Virus record (IMG/VR): IMGVR_UViG_3300013131_004115
Coordinates: 1 to 40,989 of that record
Reading direction: 5' to 3' (one strand)
Source of the DNA: a virus
DNA: 40,989 nt
Both the position numbers and the translations under genes were made by a program. Shown here piece after piece: positions 4,744-33,736 of the stretch (within the stretch, counting starts at the first letter, position 1; the number at the start of each line of letters is the position of its first letter). The notes below the pieces were generated by a model. The model searched no databases. It was not told where the DNA came from and saw only the letters and a program-made list of their open reading frames with translations.

Positions 4744-5306
4744 TAAGCAGCCCAAGATACAAAAGAATATCTAACCCCTTGCCTAACCGGTTCTACTCTA
4801 TGCGGAAAAAGAAAACTTGAGGGAAATACCATGATATCACCTGCCCTAAGTTCAATTTTTGTATTTTCAAAAAACACTAATTCACCACCTTCGTAATTAT
4901 TATTTAAAGCGCCCAGAACACTTAATACAGGCACACCCTTTACCTTTCCGTCGAACATAGAATAAATATGATCACAATGTAAGTCCATACTAGTATTTTC
5001 TAAATATCTATTTATTCTAACAGTAGTAATAGTTTTTACTGCTCTAAAATAAGGCAACCTTAAAAACTTTAAGTAATCATCTATTGCTGTTAAAATAAAA
5101 CTACGTAATCCAGATTTATCTTCTATATCAGCATTTTTAGAAATTTCCAAATCGTAGGAATTAGTTTTCATTTTCCCAGAAAAATTATTATAATATGCAT
5201 GTTTATTATACTCAATATTTTCTACATAATCACTTAAAAAAAGTAAATGATTTTTTGGAATTATATCCTTGAAAATTACTATATAATCATCTAAACTTTT
5301 ACGCAT
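4743..5306 (-). CDS. 2-oxoglutarate/Fe(II)-dependent oxygenase (prolyl-hydroxylase-like)
   Basis: The 187-residue product has the double-stranded beta-helix signatures of 2OG-Fe(II) oxygenases: LHCDHIY (HxD iron ligands), EGGELVFFE, GDIMVFPSSFLFPHRVEPV (distal His) and GVRYSFVSW (Arg for 2OG). Such enzymes hydroxylate proteins or small molecules using O2 and 2OG. It overlaps the carbamoyltransferase by 8 nt and abuts the GT25 gene, so the three are probably co-translated and act on one pathway, perhaps a modified surface sugar. The substrate cannot be read from sequence. Confidence 0.88.
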   Translation of the reverse strand: MRKSLDDYIVIFKDIIPKNHLLFLSDYVENIEYNKHAYYNNFSGKMKTNSYDLEISKNADIEDKSGLRSFILTAIDDYLKFLRLPYFRAVKTITTVRINRYLENTSMDLHCDHIYSMFDGKVKGVPVLSVLGALNNNYEGGELVFFENTKIELRAGDIMVFPSSFLFPHRVEPVRQGVRYSFVSWAA

Positions 5307-6963
5307 TTAATAAAACTTTCTCATCATCAAAATAAATGTAATCTAATTTACTATTATTTAGTAATTGAATTGCATCTTGTTTAGTTTGAATTAAAGGTCT
5401 GCCTGCTAAATTTAAACTTGTGTTTAATAGAACCGGGCATCCCGTTACATTATAAAATGCCAGTAATAAATTATATAAAAATCCATCTTCCTTATCAATA
5501 GTTTGTATTCTACAAGACCCATCAACATGAATGACAGCAGGAAATAGATTTTTTCCTTCTTCGTTTGATGTGAAATTAATTGTCATATGTGGGGAATCGT
5601 TTAGCCCCTCAGTAAAAAAGTATTTTTTAAATTCTGATCTAAGTATCACACCGGCAAAAGGTCTGTACCATTCTCGTTTTTTTATATTATTTACAATATT
5701 TCTGGCTTCATATTCTCTAGGATCAAATAGAATTGATCTATGCCCTAGTGCTCTTGGACCAGCTTCGGGTGCACCGTTAAAAATACCTAGGCTTTTTTGA
5801 TTCACTAATAAATCAACTAAATCTTTAATTTTTACTTTTTTACCAATATTGTTTCTTAACTTCTCTTTCTCATTATAAAAATGAAAAAAGGTATCTTTAA
5901 CTGGAACAGGCAAAGTTGAGGTTACCTCAAAATACTTTTTATAGCAAGCACCAATAGTAATACCAGTGTCATCTGCTACTGGCTCGAAATAAAAATTAAT
6001 TTTGGGTAAATTTTTTATATAGAAATTATTAGCAACAACATTTAATCCATACCCACCAACAATACAAACGTTATAAACTTGATATAGGTTAGTATATTTT
6101 TCTATTAGATTAAGAACTTGTTGTTGAGTCTGAGTTTGTACTTCTAGAGCTCTATCTGCATAAAACTGAAAATTATCTTTAGTTATTTCTTTTGTAATTT
6201 TTTTCCAATAATTTTTGAATACCACTGATTCTAAATTATCTTTGTTATGAATGAAAAAACTATTTTGGATATTACCATCTAAATCGAAATAAGAATGGTC
6301 AATTTTTTTTCCATAGGAGGATAATCCCATAGTTTTTCCATTTTCAAGTGGATGTTGTCCTATTAATGTTGTAGCAGCTTCATATACTTTAACTATACTA
6401 AACGAAGAGTTTGCCTTAATATCACAATCTTGAAAATTACTAGTTAAAAAATGTTTAATCTCATAAGGATCTACTTTAGAAGAACACCAATAGTTCTTAT
6501 AAACAGGTTTACATTTATTTTTTTGGTCAAATAAAAATATACTCTCAGCTTCTCTTGCTAAAAAACTATTTTTGGATGTATACAAACATGCCCCGTTTCT
6601 ATCCACCACAAAAACTAAAGATTTATCAAATTTACTATTTACGTAAGCTAACCAAGCGTGCAAATCATGATGAGAATTTTCACAAAATGTCTCGTAAGTT
6701 TTTACTCGCCTATACTTTTTAATAATAGTTTCAAAAATAGTGCGGCTAGATTCATTTATATCATCTAAAGACGGTGTAAGAAATAAACTATAATCTATAT
6801 CTTGATTTGGATAGTTTTCAAAATACGCTATTAAACTTTTTATAGGATTTGAATCTCTTTTAATTTTAGAAAATCTTTCTTCTTTTCCAAAAAATTCAAT
6901 TTCACCATTATTAAGTACACAAACAGAACTATCATGGGTAATATTATAAGATAAAATTCTCAT
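5299..6963 (-). CDS. NodU/TobZ-family O-carbamoyltransferase
   Basis: The 554-residue product matches the NodU/CmcH family (usual length about 550-600), which transfers carbamoyl from carbamoyl phosphate to sugar or antibiotic hydroxyls via carbamoyl-AMP. N-terminal domain: ITHDSSVCVLNNGEIEF, KEERFSKIKRD, ENSHHDLHAWLAYV, GKTMGLSSYGK and GGYGLNVVANN. C-terminal domain: APEAGPRALGHRSILFDPR, then VTGCPVLLNTSLNLAGRP. All family blocks look intact, so the enzyme should be active. It starts right after SleB (TGA-T-ATG) without a clear Shine-Dalgarno, suggesting coupling. Beside a GT25 and a 2OG oxygenase, it probably carbamoylates a surface glycan. Confidence 0.92.
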   Translation of the reverse strand: MRILSYNITHDSSVCVLNNGEIEFFGKEERFSKIKRDSNPIKSLIAYFENYPNQDIDYSLFLTPSLDDINESSRTIFETIIKKYRRVKTYETFCENSHHDLHAWLAYVNSKFDKSLVFVVDRNGACLYTSKNSFLAREAESIFLFDQKNKCKPVYKNYWCSSKVDPYEIKHFLTSNFQDCDIKANSSFSIVKVYEAATTLIGQHPLENGKTMGLSSYGKKIDHSYFDLDGNIQNSFFIHNKDNLESVVFKNYWKKITKEITKDNFQFYADRALEVQTQTQQQVLNLIEKYTNLYQVYNVCIVGGYGLNVVANNFYIKNLPKINFYFEPVADDTGITIGACYKKYFEVTSTLPVPVKDTFFHFYNEKEKLRNNIGKKVKIKDLVDLLVNQKSLGIFNGAPEAGPRALGHRSILFDPREYEARNIVNNIKKREWYRPFAGVILRSEFKKYFFTEGLNDSPHMTINFTSNEEGKNLFPAVIHVDGSCRIQTIDKEDGFLYNLLLAFYNVTGCPVLLNTSLNLAGRPLIQTKQDAIQLLNNSKLDYIYFDDEKVLLNA

Positions 6964-17951: not shown

Positions 17952-20900
17952 TTATCTATTTTCTAACGCAATAATTTTTGTTCTTAATTCATCAACTTCA
18001 TTTACTAATTGTTTAATCGTATTAACTATAATAGGTATTAAATGATCAATAGTTACATGCAATTTACTATTATCTTGATCACTTACAATTACAGGATCAT
18101 TTCCTTCAATTTCTAAAATTTCTTGTGCACTAAAACCATAACGTTTCTTGATATCTGTAATTACATTAGTATCGCGATTTTTGAAGGAAAATTCAATAGG
18201 GTTAATTCTTCTTAAAAAATCTTTACCATGCGGAACAGGACCAAATACACATTTATCACGGATATCTGAAACTGTTGTCCAACCAATTTGAATTTGAGCA
18301 CAGGAATGACTACTATTGCCCATGATGATACGATTTGATTCTGTGGTAATATTTGCCAAACCTGTTGCACCAACACCAGAGTAACAACCGAAGAAAAGAT
18401 TGTTACTGCCAGTGGTATTGCAGCAACCAGCATTTAAACCAAAGAAATTATTATTGGTCCCAGTGGTATTGTTGCGACCAGCATTGTTACCAAAGAAATT
18501 ATTATGAGTGCCAGTGGTATTGCTGCGACCAGCATATCGACCAATGAAATTATTATGAGTGCCAGTGGTATTGTTGCGACCAGCATACATACCAAAGAAA
18601 TTATTATTACTGCCAGTGGTATTGTTTCCACCAGCTGCACGACCAATAAAATTATTATAACAACCAGTGGTATTATTTAGACCAACATTTTGACCAAAGA
18701 AATTGTTGTATCCGCCACTAGTTGTACTTTTTCCTGCATATCGACCGATAAAAATGTTATGTGATGCTGTATTATTACAACCAGCACATAAACCAATGAA
18801 AGTATTATAACTACCATTGGTATTGTTGAGACCAGCACCTACACCAAAGAAATTATTATGTACGCCAGTGGTATTGCAGCGACCAGCAGAATTACCAAAG
18901 AAATTATTATGACTGCCAGTAGTATTGGAGCGACCAGCAAATGTACCAAAGAAATTATTATTACACCCAGTGGTATTGCAGCAACCAGCATAGAAACCTA
19001 TGAAAGTATTACAACAGCCGTCGGTATTGTAGCGACCAGCAGAATTACCAAAGAAATTATTATAACTACCAGTGGTATTACTACGACCAGCATTTCCACC
19101 AAAGAAATTATTATTACTGCCACTGATATTGCTGAAACCAGCAGAATTACCAAAGAAAAGATTGTTATTGCCAGTGGTATTAGCGCAACCAGCAAATGCA
19201 CCAATGAAAGTATTATTACAGCCATTGGTATTGCAGAAACCAGCATAGCGACCAAAGAAATTATTAGAACCGCCGTCGGTATTGCTGCGACCAGCACTAC
19301 AACCAATGAAATTATTATGAGTGCCAGTGGTATTGCAGCAACCAGCACTACGACCAAAGAAATTATTATTACTGCCAGTAGTATTGTAGCGACCAGCATC
19401 ACGACCAAGGAAATTATTACAACTACCAGTGGTATTGCAGCAACCAGCATTTGAACCGATGAAATTATTATAACAGCCAGTGGTATTAAAGCGACCAGAA
19501 TATTGACCAATGAAAGTATTATAACTACCAGTGGTATTGTTTAAACCAGCAAACATACCAAAGAAATTATTATGATTCCCAGTGGTATTGCCGCGACCAA
19601 CATATCGACCAAAGAAATTATTATGACTGCCTGTGGTATTGCAATTGCCAGCACATGAACCAGCAAAAAAGTTATTAGTGCCGTAAAAACCTGTTCCACC
19701 TATGCAACTTACAATATTATTTGTTCCGCATACATTAAAGGTAGCACTAGCTGCCCCTGATGCACCTTGTACACCTTGAGCGCCTTGGACACCTACACCT
19801 GTTGCGCCTTGGACGCCCTGTGCCCCTTGAGCACCAACTGCACCCTGTGCACCAACTGCACCCTGTGCACCTTGATTACCCTGTGGTCCTGTTGCGCCTT
19901 GGACACCTTGATTACCCTGTGGTCCTATTGCGCCTTGGAAACCTTGATTACCCTGTGCACCAACTGCGCCTTGGTCACCTTGGTTTCCTTGAGGACCTGT
20001 TGCACCTTGGACACCTTGATTGCCCTGTGCACCAACTGCGCCCTGGACACCTTGATTACCCTGTGGTCCTGCAGCTAAAGGAATAGAATTAGCAGAAGTA
20101 ATTCTACCTGTACTATCTATCACCAATCCTACATGATGGGTATTATTACCATAATTTTCTGGAAAAACTCCTGTAGCTGATAATGTAATATTGCCTGTCG
20201 TGTTACTATAAACTATACCATTACCTGTCTTTATTGCTGATAATGTATTAGCATATGCTCTGGTATTAGTATAATATAAGTTTGTACCTTCAATAATATT
20301 ACTTGTGGTAATATTTTGAATAGAGTTTGCATATAATACATTAGCTATTATAGCATTGGGTATAATAACATTACCAGAATCGTTGAATGTAAAAGAATAT
20401 GATCCAGCTTCTATAATAGTATTAGTGAAATTGCCAATAATATTACTAACAGATATGTTTCCAGTTGTAGTTAAATTTCCTACATATAGGTTTGCTGCTG
20501 ATATATTACCGGTATAGAAAGGTAATATAGATATAACATTGGCATACGTTCTTGCATTACTATAGTAAAGATTAGTGCCTTCTGTTACATTACTTGTTGT
20601 TAAATCTACTACATTAGCTTTAAGTGCCAGATTACCTTTAACTGCTTCATATACTCTTAAATCAGTATAATAGAGATTGGTGCCCTCTGTAATATTGCTT
20701 GTATTAAGATCGGTTACATTAGCTTTAAGAGCTAAATTACCAAGTATTGCTGAATATACACGAGTATTTGTAAAATATAAATTCGTGCCTTCTGTTACAT
20801 TACTTGTTGTTAAATCTACTACATTAGCTTTAAGTGCCAGATTACCTTTAACTGCTTCATATACTCTTAAATCAGTATAATAGAGATTGGTATCTTCAAT

Positions 20901-23900
20901 TACATTACTAGTTTTAAGATCAGTTACATTAGCTTTAAGGGCTAAATTACCCGTAACTGCTGCATAAACACGAGCATTGGTATAGTATAGATTAGTACCT
21001 TCTGATACATTTGAAGTAGTTAAATCTACTACATTCGCTTTGGTTGCTAAATTACCCGTAACTGCTGCATAAACACGAGCATTGGTATAGTATAGATTAG
21101 TACCTTCTGATACATTTGAAGTAGTTAATAATCCAGATGAAGAAATAGATAATGCCAACTGATTATTACTTACGTTTCCTGTAGCGCCCCCTACAGATGA
21201 AACTCCCCCGGTGATAGTTATAATACCAGTAGAATTATCATAGTTTCCGCTTCCAACAACTGAAATAGCTAATCTTGACCTATCATTACTAAAATAAAGA
21301 TTTGTACCTTCCGCTATATCTGTTGTGCTAGTAGGTAAAACATAATAAGTGGAACCATCATTGGTGAAAGACCATCTATCAGTGGATTCGTTCCATTTTA
21401 TATCTACGTTACCGCTTGTCCCCCTATTTAACAGAATCCCTGCATCTTGCGTAGGTACACCAGAATGATTAGAATTTAATACTATCTGATTGTCTGCTAG
21501 ATACAATTCCTCAGCATTAATTATTGTAGTATTTCCTGATATAGTTAAATTACCAGTAACAACTACATTACCAAGTGTGACATTGTTGGAAAGTAATGTG
21601 ATTACGTTAGAATATGTTCTAGCATTAGTAAAATATAAATTAGTACCTTCTGCTACATTACTTGATGTTAGGTCTACTATATTTGCTTTAAGTGCCAGAT
21701 TACCTGTAACTGCTTCATAAACACGAGCATTGGTATAATATAAATTAGTACCTTCTGCTACATTACTTGATGTTAGGTCTGTTATGTTGGCTTTGAAATT
21801 TAAATTACCTGTAACTGCTTCATAAACACGAGCATTGGTGTAATAAAGATTAGTACCCTCAGTTACATTTGATGTAGTTAAATCTACTACATTTGCTTTA
21901 AGTGCCAGATTACCTGTAACTGCCGCGTAAACACGAGAATTAGTAAAATATAAATTAGTACCTTCTGCTACATTACTTGATGTTAGGTCTACTATATTTG
22001 CTTTAAGTGCCAGATTACCTGTAACTGCTTCATAAACACGAGCATTGGTATAGTATAGGTTGGTACCCTCAGTAACATTACTTGTAGACAAATCGGTCAC
22101 ATTAGCTTTAAGTGCTAGATTGCCGGTTATTGCTTCATAGACTCTTGTATTAGTATAGTATAGATTAGCGCCTTCAGATACGTTTGTTGTTGTCAACAAT
22201 ACTATACCTGTTTGCCCATTAACACTTAATACATTGGCTCCCAAAGCTGAAACATTGGCTGATATACTACCAGTAACAGGATCATAAATTATTGTGCTAT
22301 CCGAAGCACTAATAGCCAATCTGGATCTAGCATTAGTAAAATAAAGATTAGTACCTTCTGCTACATTACTTGTTGTTAGGTCTGTTACGTTGGCTTTAAG
22401 TGCTAGATTGCCGGTTATTGCTTCATAGACTCTAGTGTTGGTGTAATAAAGATTAGTGCCCTCAGTTATATTTGATGTAATCAGGTCTATTATATTTGCT
22501 TTAAGAGCCAGATTACCTGTAACTGCTTCATAAACACGAGCATTGGTATAATATAGGTTGGTACCTTCTATTACGTTGCTTGTTGTCAAGTCTACTACAT
22601 TAGCTTTGAGTGCTAGATTTCCTACTATAGCAGAATAAACTCTAAGATTAGAAAAATAAACGTTACCTGTAGTGGTATCCCCACCTTCTATAATATTACT
22701 AGTGTATAATCTAGTTTGTGCGGGGTTTCCACCTTGGTCTAAAAATTCAAATGCTCCATTATTAAATTTTATAAATGATCCACCTAAATCTACAGTATTT
22801 CCACTTAAAAATAAATTAGCGAATCTATGTGTAGCATTACCTAATGAATATATTACATTGGTGCCAGGCGTTAAATCACCATTTATAACTATGCTACCAA
22901 AAGTTACATTAGAAGTGACATCTACATTTTGGCCAATGGATATTGTTGCTTGTCTTGATTCGCCAGGGGAACCTGTTATAATTACACCTGTTCCAGGAAT
23001 TACGTTTTGTACATAATCTCCGGCAGTTTGTGTACCCAAAACTATATCATCTAATATTGTATTTCCGGCTGACGTTATTCTACCGTAATTATCTACTGTA
23101 AAATTAGGTATAGTCCTGTTGTTACCGCCATAAGTAGTAGGTGTTACTCCAGTTCCAGATAAAGTAATATTACCAGTTACACTATTATAGACTATACCAT
23201 TACCTGTTTTTAAAGCTAATAACGTATTAGCATATGATCTAGCATTGGTATAGTATAAATTTGTACCTTCTGCTACATTACTTGTTGTTAAATCTACTAC
23301 ATTAGCTTTAGATGCCAGATTACCTGTAACTGCTGCATAAACACGAGCATTGGTATAGTATAGATTAGTGCTTTCAATTACATTATTAGTGTAAATATTG
23401 TTCCAATTTGTGGCATTAATAGTACTTGCATTTAAAGCTGTGGGAATAGTGATATTACCAGCATTATCAAACGTAAAAATATAACTTCCAGATGTAATTG
23501 TGGTATTAGTGAAATTTCCCACAATATTACTTAAGTTAACATTGCCCAATACGGTTAGATTACCTGTAGCAGTAATGTTAGAAAATACTACATCAGCTGT
23601 AGTTGAAACATCTTGACCTATTGATATAGTAGGTGTAGTACTTTCGTCACCTAAACCATTTAAAGTTATACCAGTACCAGAAACTAGATTAGCAACATAA
23701 GAGCCAGTAGTATCTGTACCGAGCCTGATAGAATTGGGTTGAATATTGGCAATGAAACTACTACCGGCACCTGTACTTATAGTGAAAGAATTACCTGAAG
23801 AAGTAAAACTTGATACCCCAGCAACCGCCACATTAGACGCACTAGTTATTCTTCCATGTGCATCAATTGTAACAACGGGAATATTAGCAGATCCACCATA

Positions 23901-25649
23901 TGTTGCAGGATTAACTCCTGTGGCAGATAGTGTAATGTTCCCTGTAGTATTACTATATACTATACCATTACCCGTTTTGATTGCCAATAATGTATTAGCG
24001 TATACTCTTGTATTGGTGTAATAAAGATTGGTGCCTTCTGCTACATTACTTGATGTTAGGTCTGTTACATTTGCTTTAAGGGCCAGATTACCTGTAACTG
24101 CTTCATAAACACGAGCATTGGTATAGTATAAATTAGTACCTTCAGTGACATTTGATGTGGTTAGTAAAGGATAGATATTAGCATAGACACGAGCATTGGT
24201 GTAATAAAGATTTGTTCCTTCAGTAACATCAGAAGTGGATAATAAACTTATAGACTTTTGTATAACAATATTACCAACCATAGAAGAATGGTTGGTACAT
24301 TGATAAACATATGTGTTACCAGCTAACTCGTACGGTATTTTCCAAAATAATTCACCAGTATATTTGCCTTGAGCACCGGATCCTGTTGAAATTGTGCCGT
24401 TATCGTCTACATGAGTAAGACCAGTATTGTAATTAGAACCACCATTAGAAACCCTTATAGCAAATGGATGTGCTGCACCTTGATTTAAGTCAAAAGATAT
24501 AGTTTCCCCAGCATTAACATATATTGTCGGATTATCTCCAGAATATTGATCTATATTATAATTGAATACGGGTGTAGTAACTACTAATTGAGTAACGGCT
24601 GGAATGGCTGCTAATATGGCACGAGCATTGGTATAGTATAGATTTGTACCTTCCGCTATATCTGTTGTGCTAGTAGGTAAAACATAATAAGTGGAACCAT
24701 CATTGGTGAAAGACCATCTATCAGTGGTTTCATTCCATTTTATATCTACATTAGCAGACGTGCCTCTATTAATAGAAATACCCGCATCTTGGGATGGAAC
24801 ACCAGAATGATTAGAATTAAGTACTAATTGGTTATCTGCTAAATATATTTCTTCAGAATTAATAATAGTAGTATTTCCAGAAATCGTTAGATTTCCAGTA
24901 ACAGTAAGATTACCAAAAGTAACTGAAGACGTGGTTGCTACATCTTGACCTATAGATATAGTTGGAATCGTTCCTTCATTGCCCAAATTGGATAAAGTTA
25001 CACCTGTGCCTGCTATGAGATTAGCAACATATGGTCCAGATGTTTCTGTACCTAAAATTATATCACCTAATGCTACATTGGCTGCTCTTGTTATTCTACC
25101 AAATTGATCTACATCATAAGTAGGTATTTGTCTATTGGAACCGTACGTAGAAGATACTACTCCGGAAGGTGTTAATGTAATATTACCTGTAGCAGCATTG
25201 AAAGAAATAGTATTGCCGGATGTTAATGATGCATAAACTCTTGAATTTGTAAAATACACATTACCAGTAGTAGTGTCTCCAGATTCTATTATGTTGGCTG
25301 TGTATATTAGTGTTTTAGCAGGATTGCCATTTGAGTCTAATAATTTGAAAAGGCCTTCTTCATATTTTATTGCAGCCCCACCTATGTCTATGGTAGACCC
25401 ACTTAGAAATAAATTTGAAAAGCGATGTGTAGAATTACCAATGGAAAACGTTACATTTTGTGAAGGAATAATATTGCCGGTATAGCTTTCTAAAGTCCCG
25501 TAGGCTATAATTACTACGTTACCATTTGTATTTTTGGTATAGATAAGCTTGTCAGCAAAATTGATAGCAATTTCGCCTACTGCTAAATTGGCAGATGTAG
25601 GGATTTTACCTACAACGGAGGATCTTTTGTGTTGAAATGTATTAGCCAT
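17952..25649 (-). CDS. Giant tail fibre with cupredoxin-like domain, collagen-like stretch, NTTG repeats and S74 chaperone
   Basis: About 2565 residues. N-terminus ([16 protein letters not shown]) is typical of virion attachment. Residues about 358-465 form a cupredoxin-like domain with [10 protein letters not shown] and CTNHSSM. Residues about 466-1806 hold many copies of a unit of about 34 residues ([20 protein letters not shown], then TGNLALKAN). Residues about 1860-1965 are collagen-like G-x-y ([15 protein letters not shown]). Residues about 1990-2430 are some 25 copies of a 17-residue NTTGxxNNFFGxxAG repeat, rich in Cys (AGCCNTTG). Residues about 2457-2565 are a Peptidase_S74 chaperone (SDIRDKC, then [12 protein letters not shown]), which trimerises the fibre and cuts itself off. 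I chose the ATG at 25649; the longer GTG frame lies in a terminator. Confidence 0.9.
18380..19670 (-). repeat. 51-nt tandem repeat array coding for NTTG units
   Basis: ACCAAAGAAATTATTAT and close variants recur about every 51 nt, encoding 17-residue NNFFG...AG...NTTG units, some 25 copies in one frame. Variation between copies is mostly at the codons between the fixed N, T, G and F positions. Long ORFs on the other strand here are artefacts of this periodicity. Confidence 0.85.
20068..20142. repeat. 75-bp sequence shared with 35001-35075
   Basis: Identical over 75 bp to 35001-35075 and continuing with one mismatch. It encodes the same junction upstream of the collagen-like stretch ([19 protein letters not shown]) in both fibre genes, so the two have recently exchanged DNA. 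Confidence 0.9.
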
Positions 25650-25665
25650 TTGGCATCCAAGAAAA

Positions 25666-25687
25666 AAGGACACTATATAGTGTCCTT
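25666..25687 (-). terminator. Strong terminator immediately upstream of the giant fibre gene
   Basis: AAGGACACTATATAGTGTCCTT is a perfect 22-nt palindrome followed on the minus strand by TTTT, a strong rho-independent signal. It ends read-through from the 70-residue gene at 25736. A late promoter (25696-25689) partly overlaps, so late transcripts would start inside the stem. Confidence 0.88.
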
Positions 25688-25688
25688 A

Positions 25689-25696
25689 TATTTATA
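25689..25696 (-). promoter_or_regulatory. T4-type late promoter of the giant fibre
   Basis: TATAAATA on the minus strand, with predicted start near 25683 and a leader of about 34 nt to the ATG at 25649. It overlaps the terminator palindrome, leaving only the inner half in the new transcript. Confidence 0.82.
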
Positions 25697-25956: not shown

Positions 25957-27813
25957 TTATTGATTTATTTTTATGATGACGATACCGGAGCCGCCAGCTG
26001 CTCCTGCGCCAGCAGTATCATCTTGACCACTACCGCCGCCACCGCCACCTAAGTTGGCTGTCCCAGCGGTTGGCGCTACTGTTCTTCTGCCTCCTGCGCC
26101 GCCGCCACCTGTGCCGCCACTACTGATTGATGTTGCTAGAGTGCCGCCACCGCCACCGCCAGCGTAAGTAACGCTGCTGCCGGAAATTGAAGATGCGGTT
26201 CCATTGCCTCCGTTACCGCCAACGCTGCTCGTTCCGTTTGCTCCTATCGCCGAAGCGCCGCCACCGCCACCGCCACCGTAGTTTGGTGCGCTTGTTGCGC
26301 CAGTACCGCCATTGTTGCCTTGAGAAGGACTTGTTGACGGCGTGTTACCAGTACCTCCAGTGTTCCCAGTTCCTGCACCGCCACCACCGCCACCGCCACC
26401 AGATCCTCCGTTAGCTCCCACAACATTACTATCTCTACCTGGAGAACCTCCACCACCACCAGCAGAACTAATTGTTGAAAACGGTGATGGACCTGCAATT
26501 GATGAAGCACCACCTGTCCCGCCTATACCACCAGCAGCGCCAGGAGATCCACTACCGGCTGTTCCAGCAGACCCAGCAGCGCCAACGGTAATTGTGTAAG
26601 AATCTCCTGCCGTGACAGTTAAAGACGTTCCTGTTCTAAACCCGCCAGCGCCACCACCACCAGCAATACCGGCTGACACACCAACACCCCCACCCCCACC
26701 CCCACCAGCAACCACAAGATAGTCAACGCTGGTTACACCTGCGGGGCAAGTCCAAGTGGTAGTGCCTTTGAACGTAAATACAGTTTGTGATGGTACGAAA
26801 TACTTCAGGATAACAATACCGGAGCCGCCTGCTGCTCCATCGTAATTTAATCCAGGGTCGCCGTTTGACCCAGCACCCCCACCACCACCAGAATTTGTTA
26901 CGCCAGCTACTCCGTTACCCAATCCAGAATAACTACCAGAATTGCCGCCGCCGCCATAACCACCAGCGCCACCTAGATTAGGCCCGTTATACGTTCCACC
27001 GCCACCACCGCCGGAAAAATATCCTTTAGCAGGTGATCCTCCTGGGCCAGAACTTCCATAACTAGATGCAAAAGACGGGCCTTGAATTCCATTGCCACCA
27101 GCACCGCCAGAAGTTGAAGTTCCAGAACCTCCGCTTCCACCAGCGCCGCCGCCGCCTCCAGACCCAATATTCGGGCCAGACGATGAAGATGAGCCACCGT
27201 TATTGCCTTGAGAAGATGGCCCACCATACGGTGCATCCGTTGTATTTGGTGTATTTCCAGAACCAGCCGTTGCTCCGCTATAGCCAGCAGCACCGCCTCC
27301 TGATCCTCCGCTTGCGCCGTTACTAATACTGGGGCCGTCACCACCTCCACCACCTCCACCATAAGCCACTAGTGCATTGGTGTACGGGTTTCCAGATGAA
27401 GGATTGTTAGTAATCCCAGGCCCAGAAATATAACTATTACCACCATTTCCTGCTACTGTACTACCAGAATTTAAACCTGCTGTTCCCGCTGCACCGACTG
27501 TAATAGTGTAATCTTGGTTTGGTGTAACAGTTAAACCAGTACCCGTTCTGAATCCTCCTGCACCGCCTCCGGCTCCACGTCTGCAACCACCACCACCTCC
27601 ACCAGCCACAACCAAATACTCAACCTCTGTAACACCAGTAGGGCATGTCCAAGTGCTTGTTGCTGTAAAGGTTTGGACGATGCTGAAGCCACCGTAAAGA
27701 GGCCAAGTACCAAGTTTTGTAGCTATAAACTTGTCACCCAGTGTCCATAAACCACTGGAAAAGGATAAGGCAGGATTGTTTACTGCCCCTACTATTCCAC
27801 CGTTAGATCTCAT
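25957..27813 (-). CDS. Glycine-rich tail fibre/adhesin, paralogue 1
   Basis: The 618-residue product has two tandem units, each opening FTxTSTWTCPTGVTxVxYLV (or FKGTTTWTCPAGVTSVDYLV), then long Gly-rich runs (VAGGGGGGG, GGAGG) and ending GGSGIVILKYFV or GSGIVIIKINQ. Such Gly-rich proteins form polyglycine-II sandwiches at fibre tips and bind receptors; this is inferred from composition. It is translationally coupled to the small partner gene at 27813 (TAATG). It has paralogues at 29720-31369 and 32000-33736. Confidence 0.85.
   Translation of the reverse strand: MRSNGGIVGAVNNPALSFSSGLWTLGDKFIATKLGTWPLYGGFSIVQTFTATSTWTCPTGVTEVEYLVVAGGGGGGCRRGAGGGAGGFRTGTGLTVTPNQDYTITVGAAGTAGLNSGSTVAGNGGNSYISGPGITNNPSSGNPYTNALVAYGGGGGGGDGPSISNGASGGSGGGAAGYSGATAGSGNTPNTTDAPYGGPSSQGNNGGSSSSSGPNIGSGGGGGAGGSGGSGTSTSGGAGGNGIQGPSFASSYGSSGPGGSPAKGYFSGGGGGGTYNGPNLGGAGGYGGGGNSGSYSGLGNGVAGVTNSGGGGGAGSNGDPGLNYDGAAGGSGIVILKYFVPSQTVFTFKGTTTWTCPAGVTSVDYLVVAGGGGGGGVGVSAGIAGGGGAGGFRTGTSLTVTAGDSYTITVGAAGSAGTAGSGSPGAAGGIGGTGGASSIAGPSPFSTISSAGGGGGSPGRDSNVVGANGGSGGGGGGGGAGTGNTGGTGNTPSTSPSQGNNGGTGATSAPNYGGGGGGGASAIGANGTSSVGGNGGNGTASSISGSSVTYAGGGGGGTLATSISSGGTGGGGAGGRRTVAPTAGTANLGGGGGGSGQDDTAGAGAAGGSGIVIIKINQ
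26716..26781. repeat. 66-bp repeat shared by the three glycine-rich genes
   Basis: AAGATAGTCAACGCTGGTTA and the following bases are identical over 66 bp to 30401-30466 and nearly so to 32717-32782. They encode the second-unit start (FKGTTTWTCPAGVTSVDYLV). This is a ready target for homologous exchange between the three genes. Confidence 0.9.
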
Positions 27814-28757: not shown

Positions 28758-29417
28758 TTAAGTAAGTTCTAATAAAGTTAAATCTTTTTCTTCACCTACT
28801 ATTCCTACTGGAAAAGTATTAAAGGATAAAGAAATTCTTGTGTTTTCTGCATTAACTGTTTCCACCATGTGCTCTAAGGTAGATGGAAATAAAAACAAAT
28901 CACCCTTTGTTGCCTCGAACCACCATGATTCACTGTTCCAAGTGTTCCACATTACAGGGGGCATTTTAATATTGTTTGCTGGTTCTTTATTATAAAAATA
29001 AATTTTATCTGTGTCAGATGTTTCTATGTAGTATACACCAGATACAAATGAATTTGGATGTCTGTGCTTGTGATGATACTGTCCTTGTTTTGTATAGTTA
29101 ACCCAGGATTGAGTAATTCTCAAATTAACTTCATATTTTGGATTGTATACCTCATTAAAATACATACTAAGTTTTAGTTCTAATGCTTTTTTAAACGTGC
29201 TTAGCTCTTTATTATTTAGAATTTTATTATCAACACTTGTGGTGTTACCCATATTGTTTCTTTGAGGTTGATTCAAAAGAAAATTTAATTCTTTTTTGGT
29301 CAACTTGTGTTCTACAGTATAGCAACCCACTGGAGTTGGAAATAAATTATGAATTACTGCTTTACCCGGAAACTTAAAAACATTACTGCTAATAGGTGTA
29401 ATAATTTCATCACTCAC
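28758..29417 (-). CDS. 2OG-Fe(II) oxygenase of the fibre cluster
   Basis: The 219-residue product is a 2OG-FeII_Oxy_5-type enzyme: NLFPTPVGCYTVEHKLT (opening), YHHKHRHPNSFVSGVYYI (iron ligands), GDLFLFPSTLEHMVETVN (distal His) and TRISLSFNTFPVG (2OG Arg). It is common in marine phages beside tail-fibre genes. It overlaps the 95-residue gene at 29414 by ATGA. A virion or receptor modification role is inferred from context only. Confidence 0.88.
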   Translation of the reverse strand: MSDEIITPISSNVFKFPGKAVIHNLFPTPVGCYTVEHKLTKKELNFLLNQPQRNNMGNTTSVDNKILNNKELSTFKKALELKLSMYFNEVYNPKYEVNLRITQSWVNYTKQGQYHHKHRHPNSFVSGVYYIETSDTDKIYFYNKEPANNIKMPPVMWNTWNSESWWFEATKGDLFLFPSTLEHMVETVNAENTRISLSFNTFPVGIVGEEKDLTLLELT

Positions 29418-29719: not shown

Positions 29720-31369
29720 TTATTGATTTATTTTTATGATTACGATACCGGAGCCGCCATTTGCTCCCGTTCCAGGAGCAATTGAACCTCCACCCCCACC
29801 GCCTGTGTTAGTTGTGCCTGCCGTTAATCCTGTATTACTTGATCCATTACCACCATTACCGCCACCACCTGTACCACCTGTGCCTGCACCTGATGGATCC
29901 ATAGAACCACCGCCACCACCGGCATAAGTTACAGACGAACCGCTAATACTTGAAGCAGTGCCGTTACCGCCGTTTCCAGATGATGGAGCTGCGCCAGTTC
30001 CACCAACACCACCAGCACCGCCTCCGCCACCAGTATAAAAAGATGGCGATCCAGTACCGCCGCCACCGTTTGATCCTTGCGAAGGACTCGTGGAAGGAGT
30101 GTTTCCAGACCCGCCAGTGCTAGCTGGTTGCGAACCCAATGCACCTCCACCGCCTCCAGAACCTCCGTTTGCACCGGTTTGTGATGAAGGGCCGCCTCCG
30201 CCGTTACCTCCACCAGCGGATGTAATGGTGCTAAATACCGAATTACTGCCGACATTTCCACCATTACCACCACCACCAACAGTTACGGTGTAATCAGTGC
30301 CGGCTGTTACAGATAATGCTGTGCCAGTTCTATAACCACCAGCACCGCCACCACCTCCACGACCGCCTCCAGTTCCACCACCACCGCCACCAGCCACTAC
30401 AAGATAGTCAACGCTGGTTACACCTGCGGGGCAAGTCCAAGTGGTAGTGCCTTTGAACGTAAATACGGTTTGAGTTGCTACGGTGTACTTGAGAATAACA
30501 ATGCCGGAGCCGCCTGCTCCTGAATTACCAGACCCATTCCACCCGCCCCCGCCTCCACCGCTATTAGTGGTTCCATTAGTGCTTGTGGCTCCACCGCCAC
30601 CATAACCTGCTGTGTTACCAGCAGGGCCATTACCTGCGCCGCCACCAGAAAAATAACCTGTTGAAGGAGATCCTCCAGGCCCAGAGCCACCATACGATGA
30701 CGCAAAAGATGGGCCTTGTATACCGACACCGCCACCACCACCTGGATTACCACCAGCAGTACCATTCCCACCAGCCCCACCACCACCACCAGCACCAGTG
30801 CCATCTAGTCCAGCACCACCATTATTACCTTGACTTGGTGAAGTTGATGGCGTATTTCCTGTTCCACCAGGAGCAGGTGATCCGCTACCAGCCCCACCAC
30901 CACCACAACCACCATTCTTGCCACCTAAGCTACCTGTACCACCCCCACCACCGCCGCCAAATGCTACAAAAGCATTTGCGTATGGATTTCCTGGAGCAGA
31001 AGGATTTGCAGTTATATGAGGAGAGGCTGTTGATTGGATATAAGAATCACTTCCATTATTACCGGCCCCAGCACCAGTTAAAGCTGCACCACCGCCACCA
31101 ACGGTAATGGTGTAATCATTTCCTGCGGCCACACTTAATCCAGTTCCAGTTCTATACCCGCCAGCCCCCCCACCAGCACCGTTATTGTTTCTTCCTCCGC
31201 TACCACCACCAGCCACAACCAAATACTCAACACTAGTAACACCAGTAGGGCATGTCCAAGTAGACGTAGCAGTAAAGGTTTGGACTATAGAATAACCAGA
31301 AATAAATCTTTTGAATACCTGTGAAATAGTTCTTCTTTTATTAATAGAAGAGGCAAATGCCAGAGCCAT
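29720..31369 (-). CDS. Glycine-rich tail fibre/adhesin, paralogue 2
   Basis: The 549-residue product shows two units like its paralogues: FTATSTWTCPTGVTSVEYLV then FKGTTTWTCPAGVTSVDYLV, with Gly-rich runs and the closing GGSGIVIIKINQ. Its N-terminus (ALAFASSINKRRTISQVFKR) differs from the other two, so the attachment end was exchanged while the tip was kept. Start overlaps the upstream stop (TAATG). Confidence 0.85.
   Translation of the reverse strand: MALAFASSINKRRTISQVFKRFISGYSIVQTFTATSTWTCPTGVTSVEYLVVAGGGSGGRNNNGAGGGAGGYRTGTGLSVAAGNDYTITVGGGGAALTGAGAGNNGSDSYIQSTASPHITANPSAPGNPYANAFVAFGGGGGGGTGSLGGKNGGCGGGGAGSGSPAPGGTGNTPSTSPSQGNNGGAGLDGTGAGGGGGAGGNGTAGGNPGGGGGVGIQGPSFASSYGGSGPGGSPSTGYFSGGGAGNGPAGNTAGYGGGGATSTNGTTNSGGGGGGWNGSGNSGAGGSGIVILKYTVATQTVFTFKGTTTWTCPAGVTSVDYLVVAGGGGGGTGGGRGGGGGAGGYRTGTALSVTAGTDYTVTVGGGGNGGNVGSNSVFSTITSAGGGNGGGGPSSQTGANGGSGGGGGALGSQPASTGGSGNTPSTSPSQGSNGGGGTGSPSFYTGGGGGAGGVGGTGAAPSSGNGGNGTASSISGSSVTYAGGGGGSMDPSGAGTGGTGGGGNGGNGSSNTGLTAGTTNTGGGGGGSIAPGTGANGGSGIVIIKINQ
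30401..30466. repeat. 66-bp repeat, second copy
   Basis: Identical to 26716-26781 in the first glycine-rich gene. Confidence 0.9.
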
Positions 31370-31972: not shown

Positions 31973-32032
31973 TGAAAACCTTAGTTGTCATAGACCCTCT
32001 TATTGATTTATTTTTATGATGACGATACCGGA
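31973..32032 (-). pseudogene. 60-bp duplicate carrying the truncated start of the fibre-associated gene
   Basis: Identical over 60 bp to 25930-25989. It covers the end of the third glycine-rich gene, the intergenic bases and the first codons (MTTKVF) of the 70-residue gene, then breaks off; the frame runs on only to residue 16. This is a remnant of a duplicated fibre module whose last gene was lost. Confidence 0.8.
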
Positions 32033-33736
32033 ACCGCCTGCAGAGCCTGTTCCCGGCGTGGCACGACAGCCACCACCACCACCGCCTGTGTTAACAGTTC
32101 CTGCTGAAGGAGTTGAAGACGCACCTGCTGTTGCACCACCTCCAGCGCCACCGGTACCTGCAGTTCCACCTGCCCCGCCACCTCCGCCAGCATAAGTAAC
32201 GGGAGAACCAGAAATGCTAGACGAAGTACCAGCTCCGCCATTTCCTCCGATGCCTAAAGCTCCATTAGCACCAACAGCAGAAGCGCCACCGCCACCACCA
32301 CCCCCTCTATCTGTTGCAGTTCCTGGGTTTCCAGCGCCGATACCGGTGCCGCCATTACTCCCCTGCGAGGGGCTTACTGATGGAGTGTTACCGCTCCCTC
32401 CCGGTCTAGTGCCTCCAGAGTTTACTGATCCGCTACCACCGCCACCAGAACCGCCATTACCAGCGCCTGAAACGCCACCTTCACCCCCGCCACCGCCCGT
32501 AGATGTAATGATGCTAAACACCGAATTAGAACCCGCATTACCGGAATTTCCTGTTGTTCCAGCAGTACCCCCCGCTCCAACAGTGATAGCGTACTCTGTT
32601 CCACCAGTAACGCTCAATGCGGTTCCGGTGCGGAAGCCACCTGCACCACCGCCTCCTGTTGGATTTTGGTTTGTTCCATCGACGGGGCTTCCACTGCCGC
32701 CGCCCCCACCAACCACAAGATAATCCACGCTGGTTACACCTGCGGGGCATTTCCAAGTGGTAGTGCCTTTGAACGTAAATACGGTTTGACTTGCTACGGT
32801 GTACTTGAGGATAACAATGCCGGAGCCGCCGTTATAACCACCAGCAGCACCACTGCCACCGCCCCCGCCGCCACCGGATGTGTTTGTACCTGCTGACCCA
32901 GCAGTAACATTAGCAGCACCTTTTCCACCGCCACCTATGCCACCAGGACCGCCATTGTTGGGTACGTTAAATACGCCGCCCCCTCCACCGCCAGCGTAAT
33001 ACCCAGTAGAAGGTGACCCACCAGGACCGGCTCCACCATAAGATGAAGCGAATGATGGGCCTATTAAACCGTTTCCACCACTGCCACCAATTCCAGAGGA
33101 CGGTCTAGCCGATCCTGCACTACCAGCGCCGCCGCCACCAGACGCATCTAATGTGTCAGCGCCAAGAGTTGCCCCATTATTACCTTGTGTAGTTGAAATT
33201 TCCCCTGGAACAGGAGTTATTGCAATTGCAGATCCACCAGGGCCACTGTACCCAGCGCCACCACCAGAACCACCAGGGAGACCGGGGCTAGATCCTGAAA
33301 CACCACCCCCACCACCGCCACCTTTTGATGTAACAGAGAGGAAGATTGAATCGCCGCCTGTTACCCCACCACCGGCGCTACCTGTGTTTGTATTTCCTGC
33401 GCCGCCGCCACCTACGGTGATTGTGTAGTCAGTCCCAGCGCTAACCGCCAATCCAGTACCGTATCTCATCCCCCCCGCTCCCCCGCCACCTCCATGGCGA
33501 GAGCCACCCCCACCCCCACCAGCCACAACCAAATAATCAACCTCTGTAACACCAGCAGGGCAAGTCCAAGTAGACGTAGCGGTAAAGGTTTGGACGATGG
33601 TGTAGCCACCGTAAATAGGCCAAGTTCCGGCACCTTTGTTTAAAAAATGATCTAAAATAGAATGTATCCCTCCAGCACTACTGGAAGTTACCAGCTGTTG
33701 GGGCCCTATAATTCCTTTATTAGATCTATGTCTCAT
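32000..33736 (-). CDS. Glycine-rich tail fibre/adhesin, paralogue 3
   Basis: The 578-residue product again has two units (FTATSTWTCPAGVTEVDYLV and FKGTTTWKCPAGVTSVDYLV), Gly-rich runs and the closing GGSGIVIIKINQ. Its first 45 residues (RHRSNKGIIGPQQLV..., then GAGTWPIYGGYTIVQTF) resemble paralogue 1 (RSNGGIVGAV..., GTWPLYGGFSIVQTF), so copies 1 and 3 are closest. It is coupled to the partner gene at 33736. Confidence 0.85.
   Translation of the reverse strand: MRHRSNKGIIGPQQLVTSSSAGGIHSILDHFLNKGAGTWPIYGGYTIVQTFTATSTWTCPAGVTEVDYLVVAGGGGGGSRHGGGGGAGGMRYGTGLAVSAGTDYTITVGGGGAGNTNTGSAGGGVTGGDSIFLSVTSKGGGGGGGVSGSSPGLPGGSGGGAGYSGPGGSAIAITPVPGEISTTQGNNGATLGADTLDASGGGGAGSAGSARPSSGIGGSGGNGLIGPSFASSYGGAGPGGSPSTGYYAGGGGGGVFNVPNNGGPGGIGGGGKGAANVTAGSAGTNTSGGGGGGGSGAAGGYNGGSGIVILKYTVASQTVFTFKGTTTWKCPAGVTSVDYLVVGGGGGSGSPVDGTNQNPTGGGGAGGFRTGTALSVTGGTEYAITVGAGGTAGTTGNSGNAGSNSVFSIITSTGGGGGEGGVSGAGNGGSGGGGSGSVNSGGTRPGGSGNTPSVSPSQGSNGGTGIGAGNPGTATDRGGGGGGGASAVGANGALGIGGNGGAGTSSSISGSPVTYAGGGGGAGGTAGTGGAGGGATAGASSTPSAGTVNTGGGGGGCRATPGTGSAGGSGIVIIKINQ
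32717..32782. repeat. 66-bp repeat, third (diverged) copy
   Basis: Matches 26716-26781 with a few substitutions, in the same coding position of the third glycine-rich gene. Confidence 0.85.

Follow-up and report, generated by a model that had tools for sequence, protein, structure and literature searches.

Organisation of the tail-fibre gene

The window analysed here, a 40,989-nucleotide stretch of DNA (IMG/VR virus record IMGVR_UViG_3300013131_004115), belongs to a T4-like virus whose gp32 had its closest counterpart in cyanophage S-CREM1 (58%). Its minus strand encoded a tail-fibre open reading frame (ORF) of 2573 amino acids (17952–25673), which was listed with a GTG start; an ATG at 25649, corresponding to M9, is likelier and is probably the true start of the fibre. 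The GTG was located within an inverted repeat that had a run of T behind it (AAGGACACTATATAGTGTCCTTTTTT; window 25640–25690, minus strand), and this arrangement looks like the terminator of the upstream gene. The fibre was composed of a repeat array, an inserted cupredoxin domain, a collagen-like stretch (residues ~1867–1980), NTTG-type repeats and a C-terminal Peptidase_S74 chaperone. The last of these (PF13884) matched residues 2469–2522 with 25.6 bits against a cut-off of 22, which places the ORF among the phage fibres that end in an S74 intramolecular chaperone. Together with the fibre profile matches of the ORF, this bears out the initial annotation, which had located a cupredoxin-like domain inside a tail fibre. 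Fibres with S74 chaperones are typically trimeric, and the chaperone suggests that this fibre may also be a trimer, in which case each fibre would carry about three metal ions or sites.

The module flanking the insertion on its upstream side comprised residues 262–359 (24597–24890, minus strand), and the cupredoxin domain broke the repeat array directly after the EEIYLADNQ module. A second copy of this module, from about residue 1384, had no cupredoxin domain behind it and was followed directly by the next repeat; in related fibres such as L161 the domain was likewise missing between this module and the repeat that follows. The absence of the domain behind the second copy and in these related fibres indicates that it is an insert.

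Three Gly-rich paralogues matching PHROG 2295 adjoined the fibre gene (25957–27813, 29720–31369 and 32000–33736, all on the minus strand) and may be a repeated set of proteins of a Gly-rich tail or adhesin-like kind. Additionally, the window contained genes for a Nol-like carbamoyltransferase (5299–6963, minus strand) and a 2OG-Fe(II) oxygenase (28758–29417, minus strand), and genes with both of these names are also present in phage HTVC008M.

Fold and predicted copper site of the inserted domain

The cupredoxin domain spanned residues 360–474 of the fibre (about 24596–24252, minus strand) and was supported by an AlphaFold model, a Foldseek search of the PDB and profile matches to PDB cupredoxins. 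It had been placed at 24255–24580 (residues ~358–465) in the initial annotation; the place was right and the true span is slightly longer. The model, for which a 69-row alignment of loci-derived homologues was the input, had a mean pLDDT of 96.5 and a pTM of 0.89. An earlier model from 25 rows had a disordered N-terminus and a pLDDT of 78.6, and Ig-like folds were mixed among its fold matches. When the 69-row model was compared with the PDB using Foldseek, all of the best 50 matches were of the cupredoxin fold (best E 1.7e-4; TMq 0.40–0.60, with high rmsd), and these included amicyanin, a Nitrosopumilus purple cupredoxin, NirK, laccases, plastocyanins, CuA and coagulation-factor domains. The domain is thus a Greek-key beta-sandwich of the cupredoxin type, as its annotation as cupredoxin-like had proposed, and the moderate TM-scores and high rmsd show it to be a remote member.

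A profile search of PDB sequences returned 59 matches at E<=0.1, which had modest E-values and were all cupredoxins, among them plastocyanin (E 1.6e-4), amicyanin, rusticyanin, pseudoazurin, NirK and azurin. One alignment placed the N-terminal His exactly on the plastocyanin ligand, and another showed it shifted. As a single sequence the domain scored 19.9 bits against Pfam PF00127 (Copper-bind), below the curated cut-off of 21.2, and PF00127 matched 48 of the 69 alignment members at E<=0.01. The scores against the plastocyanin model TIGR02656 (17.3 bits, cut-off 87.85) and the amicyanin model TIGR02657 (15.8 bits, cut-off 110.2) were below their cut-offs.

Four residues of the domain correspond to the ligands of a type-1 copper site, all encoded on the minus strand: His402, the N-terminal ligand, in an HPF motif (24468–24470), the thiolate ligand Cys459 (24297–24299), the second His ligand His462 (24288–24290) and the axial ligand Met465 (24279–24281). 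They occur in the order His ... Cys-x(2-4)-His-x(2-4)-Met that is found in type-1 copper proteins. The His motif and the CTNHSSM motif were both found where they had been reported, on the minus strand within the fibre ORF; the ligand spacing had been misread as C-x2-H-x3-M, as the sequence reads C-x2-H-x2-M, the spacing of amicyanin. DSSP analysis of the model (domain numbering) located His43 just before strand 45–48, the Cys at the end of strand 95–100, and His103 and Met106 on the loop leading to the last strand, 107–113. In the predicted structure this placement is the cupredoxin ligand topology at the level of secondary structure, as distinct from distances.

A chance origin of the motif was ruled out by shuffling, conservation and fold: shuffling residues 1–1850 20,000 times with their composition preserved never gave H-x50-65-CxxHxxM, and CxxHxxM occurred once across all six frames of the window. 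Within residues 1–1850 Cys was present only at positions 7 and 459, and Met codons only at 9 and 465, residue 1 being the GTG codon; Cys459 was thus the sole Cys of residues 8–1850 and Met465 the sole Met of residues 10–1850. As C7 precedes the likely start at M9, the mature fibre would have, in its repeat part, a single Cys and a single internal Met, and each belongs to the copper-site motif. We consider it very probable that the window domain has a cupredoxin fold with an intact predicted type-1 site.

The closest resemblance in the ligand loop was to amicyanin, a blue copper protein of methylotrophs, with which the phage domain shares the cupredoxin fold and the C-x2-H-x2-M loop; the 18-residue ligand-loop segment of the fibre aligned without gaps to that of amicyanin (YDYHCTPHPFMRGKVVVE). 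The two differ in that the first His is followed by N in amicyanin (HN) and by PF in the phage domain (HPF), and in that amicyanin is a free periplasmic electron carrier whereas the phage domain is an insert in a fibre. A Pro after the first His ligand is a feature of the type-1 site of multicopper oxidases (HPF...HCH...M), which the phage domain also resembles in fold (TMq ~0.5–0.6 to laccases). Unlike those enzymes, it is a single domain without the type-2/3 His cluster and is not an oxidase. Cyanophages also encode plastocyanin (petE), itself a cupredoxin; petE is a soluble metabolic gene, whereas the domain described here is part of a structural protein.

These likenesses bear on whether the domain could act as a redox module, performing electron transfer or reactive-oxygen or copper chemistry at the cell surface as the virion adsorbs. 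Type-1 sites serve in electron transfer, and amicyanin, NirK and laccase domains were among the fold matches. However, the fibre ORF showed neither a partner oxidoreductase nor a second metal centre, the His-rich type-2/3 motifs of multicopper oxidases were absent from the domain sequence and a static fibre offers no obvious electron flow, which leaves this role very improbable.

Conservation and distribution of the domain

An alignment of 69 non-redundant homologues contained only seven invariant columns (H43, P44, Y98, C100, H103, M106 and G108, domain numbering). All four ligands were therefore invariant (69/69 each), and this held down to ~30% identity while most core positions varied, in line with the type-1 placement of ligands proposed originally. 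Both CAT and CAC were used for each His and both TGT and TGC for the Cys; these synonymous changes indicate that it is the amino acids that are under selection. The 107 phage ORFs with the domain had a median Cys count of 1, and in 77 of them the ligand Cys was the sole Cys, so that these 77 ORFs can form no intramolecular disulfide. A disulfide or general Cys role was ruled out on this basis.

Conservation as an artefact of the search patterns was partly a concern, as some homologue searches used patterns that touched the ligands and a ligand-free exact pattern was present in only 12 of the 43 loci of one set. On retesting, the full-coverage domains of fibres found via the flanking module alone kept H, C, H and M, with the exception of L223, and the named phages found by tblastn retained the ligands in complete domains. 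L223 (ORF from codon 795, frame 0) carried the domain at the identical insertion point in the fibre and had lost all four ligands together. This all-or-none loss fits a single coordinated site and also shows that the fold can survive without ligands. Among other fibres, L182, L188, L193, L194, L197, L198 and L205 had two tandem divergent cupredoxin-like domains (HPF/HPL ... YYYCxxHSGMGG).

L223 raises the question of whether the domain is a metal-free Ig-like decoration that matters for its fold alone, with the ligands as a relic, and Ig-like domains were among the first fold-search matches. The invariance of the four ligands in 69 homologues in which most core positions vary argues against this, as does the lack of any Cys other than the ligand in most ORFs; both point to selection that acts on the site itself. 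The fold may be a relic in single lineages such as L223, not across the whole family, and as a general explanation we regard this as quite improbable. The persistence of the domain in L223 does mean that metal is not always required.

Analysis of the window ORF against PHROG 677 (baseplate wedge tail fibre connector, annotated gp9) revealed a domain match with an E-value of 3.4e-25 to profile positions 320–411 of 412. The similarity was confined to domain matches, PHROG 677 being missing from the matches of the whole ORF. The domain formed the C-terminus of proteins named baseplate wedge tail fiber connector in named cyanophages, which confirmed the earlier suggestion that similar domains occur in structural proteins of marine myoviruses. 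The connectors are virion proteins with a homologous domain (~30–48% identical) and the same four ligands in the members inspected. They differ in architecture, since the domain ends proteins of ~245–815 amino acids in PHROG 677 and is internal to a 2573-amino-acid S74 protein in the window.

Relatives were detected by tblastn in 333 records, nearly all of them Synechococcus or Prochlorococcus phages, and were encoded in at least 529 IMG/VR stretches. Phages inspected one by one had one to three domain matches each; T4, HTVC008M and S-CREM1 had no match to the domain. Methylophilales phage Melnitz showed a weak match (E 9.6e-5) in which the ligand motifs were present. Cellular homologues were found in Flavobacteria/Bacteroidetes proteins (L127–L143, including L128 and L137). 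Two of these ORFs look surface-exposed and repetitive when their sequences are judged by eye, one being a probable lipoprotein and the other having cadherin-like repeats and a probable T9SS tail. A strictly cyanophage-specific photosynthetic role was weakened by the Melnitz match, by the Flavobacteria/Bacteroidetes homologues and by the absence of a match in S-CREM1.

Possible roles of the predicted copper-type site on the virion

Virions with this domain probably carry a copper-type metal site, provided by a stand-alone cupredoxin domain that would present His402, Cys459, His462 and Met465 as a complete type-1 set. Free copper is almost absent from the bacterial cytosol, and for this reason the site would probably be loaded after lysis, outside the cell. 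We lean towards copper being present in the site of mature virions.

Another metal, zinc or a mixture, could occupy the site in nature as a structural clip. Azurin can contain zinc when it is produced in the cytosol of E. coli, Cys/His/His sites accept this metal and the phage is assembled in a copper-poor cytosol. Met465 was nevertheless invariant in 69/69 homologues, and an axial Met is a hallmark of type-1 copper that has no clear value for zinc; a zinc or mixed clip is therefore unlikely.

With copper as the favoured occupant, the domain would form a beta-sandwich clamped by metal and exposed on the virion exterior, towards the baseplate end of the fibre, where it may stiffen or protect the fibre junction, make weak contacts with the cell surface, or both. 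It would in this respect be akin to the Ig-like decoration domains of phages (Hoc, BACON), which are likewise modular beta-sandwiches inserted in virion proteins; unlike the phage cupredoxin, these have to our knowledge no conserved metal site. We propose this structural or adhesive role tentatively. The explanation as a whole, a virion-displayed module of the type-1 copper type with a structural or adhesive function, has in our view about an even chance of being correct.

The domain might instead act as a copper Trojan horse, in which a copper importer of the host outer membrane (TonB-dependent or a porin) recognises the copper-loaded domain and the copper hunger of the host is exploited for attachment. 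A cupredoxin docking on a copper receptor has a precedent in azurin and OprC of Pseudomonas aeruginosa (PMC6907878), and the idea has an iron counterpart, the Ferrojan or Trojan-horse proposal, in which iron is held in HxH sites of phage fibres (PMC11705849). The location of the domain in fibre or fibre-connector proteins is also consistent with such a role. Within these proteins, however, it is located towards the N-terminus of the fibre, presumably the end closer to the baseplate, or at the C-terminus of gp9-like connectors and not at the receptor-binding tip, and within one phage group it is present in some members and absent from others. Host copper-receptor recognition consequently appears improbable. 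The HxH iron sites of the T4 gp37 type resemble the phage cupredoxin in that a metal is carried by the fibre of aquatic phages (PMC11705849), and differ from it in metal, fold and site architecture.

A search confined to an open-access library found no paper on cupredoxins in phage virion proteins. The cupredoxin superfamily is known, and the phage domain is inside known protein families without having a functional name of its own. A broader proposition is that T4-like phages of aquatic habitats, as a large group, expose blue-copper modules loaded with the metal on their baseplate and fibre proteins and put them to use, so that either attachment to copper receptors of the host or the stability of the fibre depends on copper; we consider this doubtful at present. 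If it were true, virions would constitute a biological reservoir of copper, and this metal would help to determine infection. Iron accounts for most of what is known of metal sites in phage fibres, and a type-1 copper site conserved in the structural proteins of phages that are very common in marine and fresh waters would tie infection to copper chemistry. Such a site would give a functional handle on baseplate and fibre proteins that are mostly annotated by position only or as hypothetical. It would also offer a simple test for the presence and use of trace metals in virions, and L223 is a natural metal-free control.
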